This document shows, piece by piece, positions 15,704 to 21,302 of a stretch of 51,764 nt of DNA. The notes beneath the pieces were generated by a model. The model did no database searches, was not told where the DNA came from, and saw only the letters and a list, made by a program, of their open reading frames with translations. The stretch spans positions 1-51,764 of the forward strand of contig DASYCE010000003.1 in the NCBI GenBank assembly GCA_036500345.1. The letters are read 5' to 3'. A program made the position numbers and the translations under genes. Numbering within the stretch: position 1 is the first letter of the stretch; every line of letters starts with the position of its first letter. The stretch comes from Gemmatimonadales bacterium (lineage in GTDB: Bacteria; Gemmatimonadota; Gemmatimonadetes; Gemmatimonadales; GWC2-71-9).

Positions 15704-15823
15704 TATGGTGCTATCTCCATTGATTGACAAGAGCTTAGATGGCCAGACCTCAAGCGACTTCGCAGCGCATTGGATGCGTGCCGCCTGCGGGCCCGTGCGC
15801 TGATTCCCATTACTTTTTCGCAA

Positions 15824-17722
15824 GTGACTCACCGCAAACCTGCTGCGCTCGTTCTTGGCGCCCTGGCCCTGATTGCCCTGATCGCCATGCTGGCGACCTG
15901 GAGCTGGGGCGATGTCCGTCAACGGGTTCGTTCCCTCGGCTCGGCTGCCCGTCGAAACGGCACCGCGGTCGACACCCGCCCGCTCGAGGCTGCCCAGCAG
16001 CTGGAGCAGCTGGCCCAGACCAGGACCGAGCGCAGCTATGCGGCCGAAGCGCTCCGGTTGGGCGATTACTCGGTCGACTTTGCCTTTGCCGCCGCGATCA
16101 GGCAGGCCGCCAACGCGCCGACGCCCTCCACACCGGAGACTCGCGCGGTGATGGCCCGTCTGACCGGCGCGTCGGCCGCGCTCGATTCGACGCGCGGCCT
16201 GATCAAGGTGCTGACGGCTCGGTTGGCTTCCGGCCCTGCCGGCGCCTGCGACGCCACGCAGCAGCAACTGGACGAAGCGCAGGCGCAGCTCGAACTCCAG
16301 CAGGATGAGATCGACGACGCGCGCCAGGACCTGATCCGAGCTGGAGGCGATCGCCTCGCGGCGATCCAGCGGGTCCGCGATCAGCATGACTCGGCGCAGC
16401 ATCATCCCGCTACGGCAACGGAGGCTGCCTCCGCAACGCCGCAAGCGACGTCAGTCGAACTGACCCGTTCGTCGAATCTCCTCGATCAGGCAGCGGCGTG
16501 GCTCTCGCTCGAATCGAAGCTCAAGCTCCTGCGGCAGGCGCGGCAATCGGCGCTCGATCGCGTGACCGCGTTCTCCCTGGCCCACGACACGCTGGAAAAG
16601 CAGGTTGCCGCGGAGCGAGGCGCGCAGCGAATTCTCCATCCACAGGGTCGCAATGCCGGCACTGTAGCGCTCACCGGCGGAGCGAAGCCAGCCGATAGCG
16701 GCGCCCGCCGTGCGTCCCCGTCCGCGGCATCACCGTCCATCGCAACGGATTCTGCCGTCGGCGACACGCGGCTCGTCTTTCTCAAGGACCTCGCCACCGA
16801 CCAGAAGGATCTCTCCGATCTCGATCGTCGCGTCGAAAACGAGCAGGACCTCGCAGCCGTGTATGCCAGCTGGATCGACTATGTGACGATCCGGCAGCAG
16901 AGCTTTGTCCACGGCGGATTCGTCGCCGCGTTCTGGGCGCTGCTGATCGCGCTGATCATCGTCGTCGCCAATCGCGGCGTGCGTCGGGCCGTCGCCGGAA
17001 TGGCCCAGACCAATCGGACACTGCACACCCTCGGCACGGTGGCGCTTTTCACGGCGCAGGCGATCGGCATTCTGGTGATTGCGCTCGTCATCTTCGGGAT
17101 TCCGAGCAACTTCGCGACGGTGATCGCATTGACAGGCGCGGGACTGGCGCTCGCGCTCCAGGATTTCATCGTCGGATTCTTCGGCTGGTTCGTCCTGATG
17201 GGAAAGGACGGGATGCGTGTCGGCGACTGGGTGGAAATCAACGGAGTGAGCGGCGAAGTGCTCGACGTCGGCGTCTTCCAGACCGTCCTGCTCGAGACCA
17301 GCGATGGTTCGGGCGCCGCCGATCCGACCGGCCGAAAGGTCTCGTTCGTCAACAGCTTTGCCATCGAGGGCCACTACTTCAATTTCTCGACGTCTGGCCA
17401 ATGGCTCTGGGATGAGCTCGAAGTCGACGTGCCGACGGGGATGGATCCGTACACGATTGCCGAGGAGATTCAACGCGTCGCCGCGGAGGAGACCGCCGCC
17501 AATGCGGCCGAGGCAGAAACCGACTGGCAGAGCGCGATTCACGCCCCGGGGAAGCGGCCGTTCTCTGCGGCGCCGGCGGTCAGCGTGCGCCCCGCAGGGG
17601 GCGGCGTCACGGTCCAGGTGCGCTATCTCACCAAGATCACCGAACGCCAGGCCACACGCGCCACGATGTATCGCGCAATGATCGAACTACTGCGCGGCAA
17701 ACCGATCGAGTCACGACCGTAG
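15824..17722 (+). CDS. MscS-type mechanosensitive channel with long periplasmic coiled-coil region
   Basis: About 632 residues from the GTG start at 15824; a TTG at 15770 is the main alternative. An N-terminal hydrophobic segment (about 8-27) is followed by roughly 330 polar residues rich in Ala, Gln and Glu heptads (AQAQLELQQDEIDDARQDL near 149-167). Membrane helices lie at about 364-386 and 404-428. The MscS pore helix is GAGLALALQDFIVGFFGWF (about 440-458), followed by the beta domain VGDWVEINGVSGEVLDVGV. It should open under membrane tension to release solutes. The layout is like KefA/MscK-type relatives. It converges on the next gene, overlapping its stop by 12 bases. Confidence 0.88.
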   Translation: MTHRKPAALVLGALALIALIAMLATWSWGDVRQRVRSLGSAARRNGTAVDTRPLEAAQQLEQLAQTRTERSYAAEALRLGDYSVDFAFAAAIRQAANAPTPSTPETRAVMARLTGASAALDSTRGLIKVLTARLASGPAGACDATQQQLDEAQAQLELQQDEIDDARQDLIRAGGDRLAAIQRVRDQHDSAQHHPATATEAASATPQATSVELTRSSNLLDQAAAWLSLESKLKLLRQARQSALDRVTAFSLAHDTLEKQVAAERGAQRILHPQGRNAGTVALTGGAKPADSGARRASPSAASPSIATDSAVGDTRLVFLKDLATDQKDLSDLDRRVENEQDLAAVYASWIDYVTIRQQSFVHGGFVAAFWALLIALIIVVANRGVRRAVAGMAQTNRTLHTLGTVALFTAQAIGILVIALVIFGIPSNFATVIALTGAGLALALQDFIVGFFGWFVLMGKDGMRVGDWVEINGVSGEVLDVGVFQTVLLETSDGSGAADPTGRKVSFVNSFAIEGHYFNFSTSGQWLWDELEVDVPTGMDPYTIAEEIQRVAAEETAANAAEAETDWQSAIHAPGKRPFSAAPAVSVRPAGGGVTVQVRYLTKITERQATRATMYRAMIELLRGKPIESRP

Positions 17723-18220
17723 CTCCTGTCGCAGTTCACGCGCGGCCGCGTTCAGGTCCAAGGTGCGATCCGCCTGACTCTCCACCAACGGTGTTCGCAC
17801 GACACCCAGAAAGAATCGCATCAGCACGACGCCGCACACGATCAGGGATGCGTGAAAGCCGTACTCGATGTAGAGGAGGCCGGTGAGGTTCATGCCGACG
17901 TGCTGGTGGAGGCTATCGTGAGCCCACCAGTTCATCAACAGCCACGAGATTGCCAGATGAGCGGATCGCGTGAGCGGGAACGGTCGACCCGCCGACGCTG
18001 CGACCATCGGCTTTCCCAAGAGAAGAAAGGCGAGCCCCAGCCCAAGTGCGACCGCCTCCAGGAGGCCGAGCAATGCGAAGAGCGCCATCTGTACGCCCGC
18101 GGGGATTGGCATTTCGGCTGCCGGCGGCCAGAAACCGCCGAGTGGCGAGTGCGATTCGGTGAGGAAGCCAAGAATCGCGGTGATGATGACAAGCGCGACG
18201 ACCTTCGCTCTGGATTGCAT
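17711..18220 (-). CDS. Hypothetical four-helix membrane protein
   Basis: A 169-residue protein with about four hydrophobic helices: residues 6-20, 41-68, 85-98 and 117-142. Two histidine-containing stretches, WWAHDSLHQHVG (about 98-109) and the nearby EYGFHAS, lie on one side and could bind metal or haem, but no known motif is complete. A short charged C-terminal tail follows. No family is recognised. It stands alone, converging with the MscS gene and followed on its upstream side by a repeat region and tRNA-Gly. Confidence 0.7.
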   Translation of the reverse strand: MQSRAKVVALVIITAILGFLTESHSPLGGFWPPAAEMPIPAGVQMALFALLGLLEAVALGLGLAFLLLGKPMVAASAGRPFPLTRSAHLAISWLLMNWWAHDSLHQHVGMNLTGLLYIEYGFHASLIVCGVVLMRFFLGVVRTPLVESQADRTLDLNAAARELRQELRS

Positions 18221-18305: not shown

Positions 18306-18429
18306 AAGCGGGCGACGGGGTGGAGCTGAACACGCTCACCCCGTCAATTGGCCGGAAATATCTCTTGAAGCGGGCGACGGGGTGGAGCTGAACACGCTCA
18401 CCCCGTCAATTGGCCGGAAATATCTCTTG
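18306..18429 (-). repeat. Two exact 62-bp tandem repeats copying the 3' end of tRNA-Gly
   Basis: Copies at 18306-18367 and 18368-18429 are identical over 62 bases. A third, partial copy of 16 bases starts at 18430, and this is the real 3' end of tRNA-Gly(CCC). So each unit carries the T-stem 3' half, acceptor 3' strand and discriminator of the tRNA, plus 46 unrelated bases. Inside each unit gacggggtg and caccccgtc form a 9-bp inverted repeat. No T-run follows, so it is not a standard terminator. The remaining part of 18221-18305 shows no gene. Confidence 0.92.
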
Positions 18430-18430
18430 A

Positions 18431-18503
18431 AGCGGGCGACGGGGTTCGAACCCGCGACCCTCAGCTTGGGAAGCTGATGCTCTACCAACTGAGCTACACC
18501 CGC
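18431..18503 (-). tRNA. tRNA-Gly (anticodon CCC)
   Basis: The minus strand folds as a 73-nt tRNA. The acceptor stem is GCGGGTG/CGCCCGC with a T-G pair, and the D stem is GCTC/GAGC. The anticodon arm is TCAGC-TTCCCAA-GCTGA with anticodon CCC, and the T arm is GCGGG-TTCGAAC-CCCGT. CCA is not encoded. Its last 15 bases are repeated twice just downstream. Confidence 0.95.
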
Positions 18504-20153: not shown

Positions 20154-21302
20154 TTACGGGTTGCGGTACAACCAGCCGGCTCCGGTGTTGAACACGATGA
20201 GCCGGTCTTCCGGGGCGATCGCCCCGGTGCGCTGGAGCTCCACCGCAGCGGCGATCGCGGCGCCGCCTTCGGGCGAGAAGTCGACCCCCTCCTGCTCAGT
20301 TCCGAGCCGGGCAAGGCGGGTCATCTCCTCATCGGGAACGGCGACTGCCCCGCCGCCGGTTTCCCGGAGGATCCGGAGCATCAGCTTGTCTCCCAGGGGC
20401 CCGGGGACGCGGAGACCGCTCGCGACGGTCCATGGGTCGGGCCACGGGTCGGCTTTTTCCGCCCCGTCGGCGAACGCCTTGACCACGGGGGCACAGCCAG
20501 TGCTCTGGACGGTGTACATCCTCGGCAGCGCGCCGTTGATCCAGCCGGCGGCTTCCAGTTCCACGAACGCCTTCCACATCCCGATCAACCCGGTCCCGCC
20601 CCCGGTTGGATAGACGATCGCATCCGGCAGCGTCCAGTTGAACTGCATGGCGATTTCGAGGCCGAGAGTCTTCTTCCCTTCGATCCGATACGGTTCCCGC
20701 AACGTGCTCAAGTCGAGCGCGCCGGTCTCGGCGGCAAAGGCGCGAGACGCCTTCCCGCAGTCTCCGATGTGACCGTCGAGGAGCACCAGATCGGCGCCGT
20801 ACTCCTGGATCTGCGCCAGAATGGTCCGCGGGGTGGTCTTCGGTGCAAAGACCCGCACCGCAACCCCGGCGCGAGCGGCATAGGCGGCGCTCGCCACACC
20901 GGCGTTACCCGCCGTCGGGATCACGAAGCGCGTGGCACCGGAGTGGACGGCGCGGGTGATGGCGGCGCTCAGTCCTCGGGACTTGAAGGATCCTGTCGGG
21001 TTGCACCCTTCGTCCTTGACCCAGATGTCACCGAGTCCGAGGGCCGATGCCAGGCGTGGCGCCGCGATCAGCGGTGTATCGCCTTCCCCGAGGGAGATCG
21101 GCTCCTCATCGGGCTCGAGTGGGAGAAAGGAGCGATATCGCCACATCCCGCGGCGGCGGCGCGCTTCGGCGCGTTCGCCGACCGACTGATCGCGGGCGGG
21201 ATAGCGAACCAGCCAGGGCCGGCCGCACGCCGGACAGACGGTGGGCAATCCCTCCGGAGAACCGGTGGTGCCGCAATCAGAACACTCGAGATGCCAATCC
21301 AT
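20154..21302 (-). CDS. thrC: Threonine synthase
   Basis: A 382-residue PLP enzyme converting O-phosphohomoserine to threonine. It begins with a zinc-ribbon-like knuckle (C7, C10, C23, C26), as in the archaeal/cyanobacterial-like subtype. The PLP Lys is K107 in NPTGSFKSRG. The cofactor-phosphate loop is PTGGGTGLIGMWKA (about 222-235), and TAGNAGVASAAYAARAG is near 137. The start codon directly follows the uvrC stop (TGA-ATG), making it the last gene of the long minus-strand array. Other PLP fold-II enzymes are possible, but the length and ribbon favour ThrC. Confidence 0.9.
   Translation of the reverse strand: MDWHLECSDCGTTGSPEGLPTVCPACGRPWLVRYPARDQSVGERAEARRRRGMWRYRSFLPLEPDEEPISLGEGDTPLIAAPRLASALGLGDIWVKDEGCNPTGSFKSRGLSAAITRAVHSGATRFVIPTAGNAGVASAAYAARAGVAVRVFAPKTTPRTILAQIQEYGADLVLLDGHIGDCGKASRAFAAETGALDLSTLREPYRIEGKKTLGLEIAMQFNWTLPDAIVYPTGGGTGLIGMWKAFVELEAAGWINGALPRMYTVQSTGCAPVVKAFADGAEKADPWPDPWTVASGLRVPGPLGDKLMLRILRETGGGAVAVPDEEMTRLARLGTEQEGVDFSPEGGAAIAAAVELQRTGAIAPEDRLIVFNTGAGWLYRNP

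Follow-up and report, generated by a model that had tools for sequence, protein, structure and literature searches.

The tyrTV locus of Escherichia coli (tyrTV/rtT; RttR, RF00391) is the closest described system and is used here as the control. It is made up of tandem 178-bp units directly 3' of tRNA-Tyr, and each unit carries an exact 19-nt copy of the tRNA-Tyr 3' end together with the RttR RNA and the tpr ORF. Two further systems invite comparison. Partial tRNA copies of the attR type place a copy of a tRNA 3' end downstream of an intact tRNA that is a target of integration. Terminator or trailer hairpins of bacterial tRNA genes are strong hairpins located just downstream of the tRNA.

The window is the whole 51.8-kb stretch of DNA that was analyzed, and its own genome, that of a Gemmatimonadota bacterium, is referred to as G000. 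The genus set is composed of 10 genomes, G000 included, and the phylum set of 395. A glycine tRNA locus in the window possesses two 62-bp units (18306-18367 and 18368-18429) with 100% identity to each other. The 16 bases that open each unit occur a third time at 18430-18445, where they form the tRNA's own end. The locus contains the following features.

18431..18503, minus strand: tRNA-Gly(CCC) gene, 3' end facing the array (ARAGORN; Rfam RF00005, 71 bits)
18430..18445, minus strand: 16-bp tail, parent of the tail copies in the units (three-copy repeat family, 100%)
18368..18429, minus strand: tRNA-proximal 62-bp unit of spacer, hairpin, and tail (repeat search, Tandem Repeats Finder)
18376..18407, minus strand: hairpin of the proximal unit, 31/32 identical to that of the relative G009 (pattern search, comparison, folding)
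18306..18367, minus strand: tRNA-distal 62-bp unit, same sequence as the proximal unit (repeat search, Tandem Repeats Finder)
18314..18345, minus strand: hairpin of the distal unit (pattern search, folding)

Along the tRNA strand, each unit begins with a spacer of 22 nt, continues with a hairpin of 32 nt, and closes with a copy of the tRNA tail. The order of the locus from 5' to 3' is tRNA, spacer, hairpin, tail, spacer, hairpin, tail, and the first hairpin starts 22-23 nt past the tRNA end. The 16-bp shared stretch is made up of the last 15 bases of the tRNA and one flanking base. Tandem Repeats Finder describes the array as period 62, 2.3 copies, 100% matches, and a score of 280; the three remaining arrays in the window score 57-68. 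Chance cannot account for the exact 62-bp repeat.

A sequence-only reading of this DNA had described two exact 62-bp tandem units, each holding the last 15 bases of the tRNA, and both descriptions are correct; for the second, the repeat search and ARAGORN agree. It had placed the tRNA 3' end from 18430. The third tail copy does start there, but the tRNA itself ends at 18431. It had also proposed a genome-wide search for other copies of the unit or an integrase. G000 contains no further copy of the unit, with all other matches being tRNA genes, and the window's contig has no PF00589 integrase. An Rfam scan of 16-21 kb identified no known RNA besides the tRNA.

The array shares the tyrTV layout in that its tandem units follow immediately 3' of a tRNA and each reproduces the tRNA 3' end exactly. 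It differs from the E. coli locus in the tail copy (15 nt plus one base, against 19 nt), in the unit (62 bp with no ORF, against 178 bp with RttR RNA and tpr), and in the tRNA, which is tRNA-Gly(CCC) and not tRNA-Tyr. The RF00391 covariance model matches the E. coli control and 0/10 genus genomes. The likeness is therefore one of layout without homology, apparently reached independently. As with attR-type copies, a copy of a tRNA 3' end lies downstream of an intact and genuinely targeted tRNA. Unlike them, the array shares 16 nt and not 45-49 nt with the tRNA, is tandem at 62-bp spacing, and has neither an integrase nor an intervening element. As with terminator or trailer hairpins, a strong hairpin is found just downstream of the tRNA. 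Unlike those, the 3' arm enters the tRNA tail copy, there is no T run, the structure is tandemly repeated, and its sequence is conserved, including most of the loop. A literature search found nothing on a tRNA-tail array of this kind.

The hairpin of the unit is a 12-7-13 inverted repeat that folds into 12 pairs with one bulge at -21.6 kcal/mol, an energy reached by 0/1000 mononucleotide shuffles. The 9-bp inverted repeat claimed earlier is visible by eye, and folding extends it to these 12 pairs. The program repeat search, where the minimum arm is 12 bases, does not list this 9-base arm. Compared with dinucleotide shuffles, the tRNA and array folded together have a z of -6.6, to which the tRNA itself contributes.

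The array is rare. G009, a member of the same genus, also possesses it at tRNA-Gly(CCC), 83% identical over 198 nt. Searched with up to 3 mismatches, the hairpin is found in 2/395 phylum genomes, G000 and G009, and a tail-only pattern that is independent of the hairpin identifies the same two of 395. Downstream tail copies (≤2 mismatches) were also sought within 1 kb of the tRNA genes in the fetched loci, which hold part of the tRNA complement of each relative. Of 242 rows, 241 usable distinct tRNA genes were retained; one tRNA cut by the locus end, where matches are meaningless, was dropped. Of these rows, 49 came from G000; the downstream stretch exceeded 500 nt in 48 of them and was a single base in the other. 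Only the G000 and G009 loci have such a copy.

Matches elsewhere are few. The unit DNA matches four of 102 family genomes: G000, G009, G006 (a partial tRNA on contig C4), and G010, where the match is 24 nt and is taken as chance. A relaxed hairpin pattern matches four of 288 order genomes; the extra two, G221 and G147, have no tRNA in the 3-kb locus and are also taken as chance. The hairpin or its 3' arm occurs in 0 IMG/VR contigs, and no phage or plasmid record contains the array region. Distribution within the genus is patchy. G001 has no array though it is closer to G000 (84% Der protein identity) than G009 is (75%), so losses or transfer are needed.

G000 and G009 are well diverged. At the fourfold sites of the nearby der gene, 97/203 (48%) are identical between them; the value is also 48% for G000 and G001, and the sites are saturated in both comparisons. 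The hairpin differs at one of its 32 bases, in the loop (binomial 2e-9 against the der fourfold sites), and none of its pairs covary between the two species. The spacer behaves differently. Its alignment with G009 unit type A is no better than shuffles (312/500 reach it), and with type B it is weakly better (102/500). Types A and B of G009 have four differences, all in the spacer, with the hairpin and tail the same. One tail base tracks the host tRNA, G in G000 and T in G009: the tRNA and units read CGCCCGC in G000 and CTCCCGC in G009. With a hairpin this nearly identical, a spacer near random, and host-matched tails, it follows that the hairpin is constrained or was recently shared between the species, that the spacer drifts freely, and that the tails are kept equal to the tRNA.

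Contigs C6 and C10 of G009 both end inside the array and overlap by exactly 104 nt, and the overlap starts at the point where types A and B diverge. Since a 104-mer present once should have been merged by the assembler, we infer at least three units, A, B, B, a count that comes from assembler reasoning and is not a measurement. C10 runs on into the DUF512 gene and der, as in G003, so in G009 no gene lies between the units or between the array and the DUF512 gene. The sequence-only reading had counted variable copies without inserts in relatives against integration, and this is the pattern found in one relative, G009, given its inferred three or more units. It had also held that the perfect copies are either recent or kept equal. 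They are indeed kept equal; plain recent slippage is too simple, because the hairpin is common to species with saturated synonymous sites.

The gene neighborhood is conserved in part. Relatives share, wholly or partly, a gene order of uvrC, a threonine synthase-like gene, a TPR gene, tRNA-Gly(CCC), a variable interval, a DUF512 gene, and der. The names uvrC, threonine synthase, and der are our own reading of the sequence; Pfam confirms the TPR and DUF512 genes. In the 7 kb searched upstream of the G009 tRNA, there is no match to uvrC, the threonine synthase-like gene, or the TPR gene. The interval between tRNA-Gly and the DUF512 gene is gene-free in G003, G005, and contig C20 of G006. In G000, the interval contains two ORFs (15770-18220 of the window, with ordinary GC).

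15770..17722, plus strand: MscS-type channel ORF (PF00924)
17711..18220, minus strand: 169-aa ORF directly beyond the array, in the tRNA-Gly/DUF512 interval (no Pfam match)

For the MscS protein, the other nine genus genomes offer no close relative; the only matches there are partial ones of 27-28%, in G004 and G005. The segment was considered as an island bounded by tail copies, and there is no support for this: its GC of 0.649 is close to the window's 0.654, and the window contains no tRNA 11-mer outside the array except for an overlapping pair at 20376, which is not part of this segment.

Strong downstream hairpins are a property of this tRNA in the genus. A hairpin of ≤-24 kcal/mol is found within 90 nt downstream of 6/7 genus tRNA-Gly(CCC) genes, G000 and G009 included, and in 30/200 random windows under the same settings. 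The exception among the seven is G001 (-17.6 kcal/mol), where an island follows. An eighth tRNA-Gly(CCC) comes from another genus (G074); its downstream sequence stops after 33 nt and folds at -26.1 kcal/mol. The hairpins in the same place at most other genus tRNA-Gly(CCC) genes are unrelated in sequence to that of the array. Among 48 G000 tRNA genes, hairpins of ≤-15 kcal/mol are not enriched (26/48 vs. 86/150 random windows); only the tRNA-Gly(CCC) comparison is significant.

These positions point to a possible terminator role for the array hairpin. A classical intrinsic terminator, a GC-rich hairpin followed by a T run, is doubtful because the hairpin is followed by CGCTTCAAGA, with no T run, and because it is absent from a promoter and terminator consensus scan of 18.0-18.9 kb, which lists one weak terminator-like site elsewhere. 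Moreover, the conservation of the loop exceeds what a terminator needs. Precursor folding was considered as evidence of a processing role and rejected, since the two species disagree: the fold favors pairing of the 5' acceptor strand with the last tail in G000 but with its own tail in G009.

tRNA-Gly(CCC) is, from the sequences compared, an integration hotspot in the genus. Islands fill the G001 interval, with two PF00589 integrases that each lie ~100 bp from a full or partial tRNA-Gly(CCC). Contigs C1 and C10 of G001 contain four partial tRNA copies of 45-49 nt, starting from the anticodon loop, and partial copies are also present in G006 and G008. Seven IMG/VR contigs contain the 3' half of a tRNA-Gly(CCC). 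The G001 island run covers C1:33431-52651 and C10, and its two integrases are mutually related. G000 has five PF00589 matches (C7, C8, C11, C16, and C26), with integrases next to tRNA-Ile and tRNA-Pro(CGG) among them. At C11:20124-20878 of G000, an integrase lies at tRNA-Pro(CGG), and a 45-nt direct repeat of the tRNA 3' half is found ~15.9 kb beyond; the 45-nt repeats are likely the two ends of an island.

Several tRNA-Gly(CCC) genes of relatives are unusual. The partial tRNA of G006 (C4:4687-4769) has a 38-bp insert in the T-arm that resembles a repetitive extragenic palindrome. Here the T-arm loop is replaced by a hairpin, followed by CAGCTCC and then the tail. It is identical to the G000 unit over 23 nt; 7 of these lie outside the part that the unit has in common with the tRNA. 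In G004 (C401:3307-3346), a tRNA-Gly(CCC) is intact for its first 40 bases and continues into unrelated sequence from the anticodon loop; a broken tRNA and an assembly chimera are the candidate readings. A third gene, in G006 (C20:597-669), pairs a GCGGGTG 5' acceptor strand with a CTCCCGC 3' strand, with one mismatch. Perhaps the 3' half was swapped in by integration, or the bin is of mixed strains.

We favor, with a probability of roughly 0.5, a functional reading where the array would be a recombining 3'-trailer repeat of tRNA-Gly(CCC), with its trailer hairpin and tail amplified and homogenized as tail copies recombine. Because another species of this genus shows the arrangement too, with a hairpin that is almost the same, the array looks like an old feature of the tRNA flank that recombines, and not the fresh scar of one integration. 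The proximal hairpin would act as a transcript-end or processing structure of the tRNA, since a strong hairpin of unrelated sequence occupies this place at most other tRNA-Gly(CCC) genes of the genus. The 3' arm of the hairpin would be continuous with the tRNA tail, and the 16-bp tail copies would let the array gain or lose units by unequal recombination or slippage, giving two in G000 and probably at least three in G009. Exchange between tail copies would keep the units alike and spread the tRNA's own tail sequence.

The sequence-only reading had suggested an integrase attachment site and a remnant of integration and excision. The first part holds to the extent that this tRNA is an integrase target in the genus, as in G001. 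A relic of site-specific integration, where an attR-like partial tRNA copy (an enlarged-loop T-arm and tail) later shrank and was tandemly copied, is possible though not probable. The hotspot, with its islands, integrases, partial copies, and IMG/VR contigs, is in keeping with this origin, as is the patchy distribution of the array. The core of a tyrosine recombinase is about the size of a 12-7-13 inverted repeat. The hairpin-bearing partial tRNA of G006 is a hint, but no proof, that the unit originated as a decayed att copy. However, the remnant reading meets several difficulties. Islands duplicate ~45 nt (45-49 nt from the anticodon loop in G001 and G006, and 45 nt at the G000 tRNA-Pro island), whereas the units share 16 nt with the tRNA. 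No attL/attR pair flanks an integrase element; the copies are 62 bp apart with no gene between them, the contig has no integrase, and nothing is inserted between the G009 units. No parent element appears among the IMG/VR contigs or the phage and plasmid records, and a dead remnant should not retain 31/32 bases at saturated divergence.

A fresh, functionless slippage duplication in G000 alone is unlikely. The units are identical, direct repeats of 8-16 bp are available as slippage points, and G000 may well have gone from one unit to two only recently, but the unit is tandem in G009 too and is older than G000. Nor does any other tail copy occur within 1 kb downstream among the 241 scanned tRNA genes. 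Improbable too, as we judge it, is a selected mimic of the tRNA 3' end that tunes tRNA-Gly(CCC) maturation, or a DNA-level role for the inverted repeat. In the mimic, the hairpin would replace the T-arm, joined to a copy of the acceptor 3' strand, and the tails would rival the tRNA's own 3' strand in pairing with the 5' acceptor strand. In the DNA-level version, the 12-7-13 inverted repeat would be a recombinase site, acting as a landing pad or decoy beside the integration hotspot. An assembly artefact is very improbable because a second species, in its own assembly, carries the same kind of array at the same tRNA. Short tandem repeats do confuse assemblers, and the G009 contigs break at the array, but at 140 bp the array is roughly as long as an ordinary short read.

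The array extends the tyrTV-type layout of tandem tRNA-tail repeats to another phylum and to an integration-hotspot tRNA, and its hairpin is far better conserved than neutrality predicts. Should the tail copies influence tRNA maturation or integration, this would be a small, testable system. If they have no effect, it would be a neat case of a tRNA gene homogenizing its own flank.
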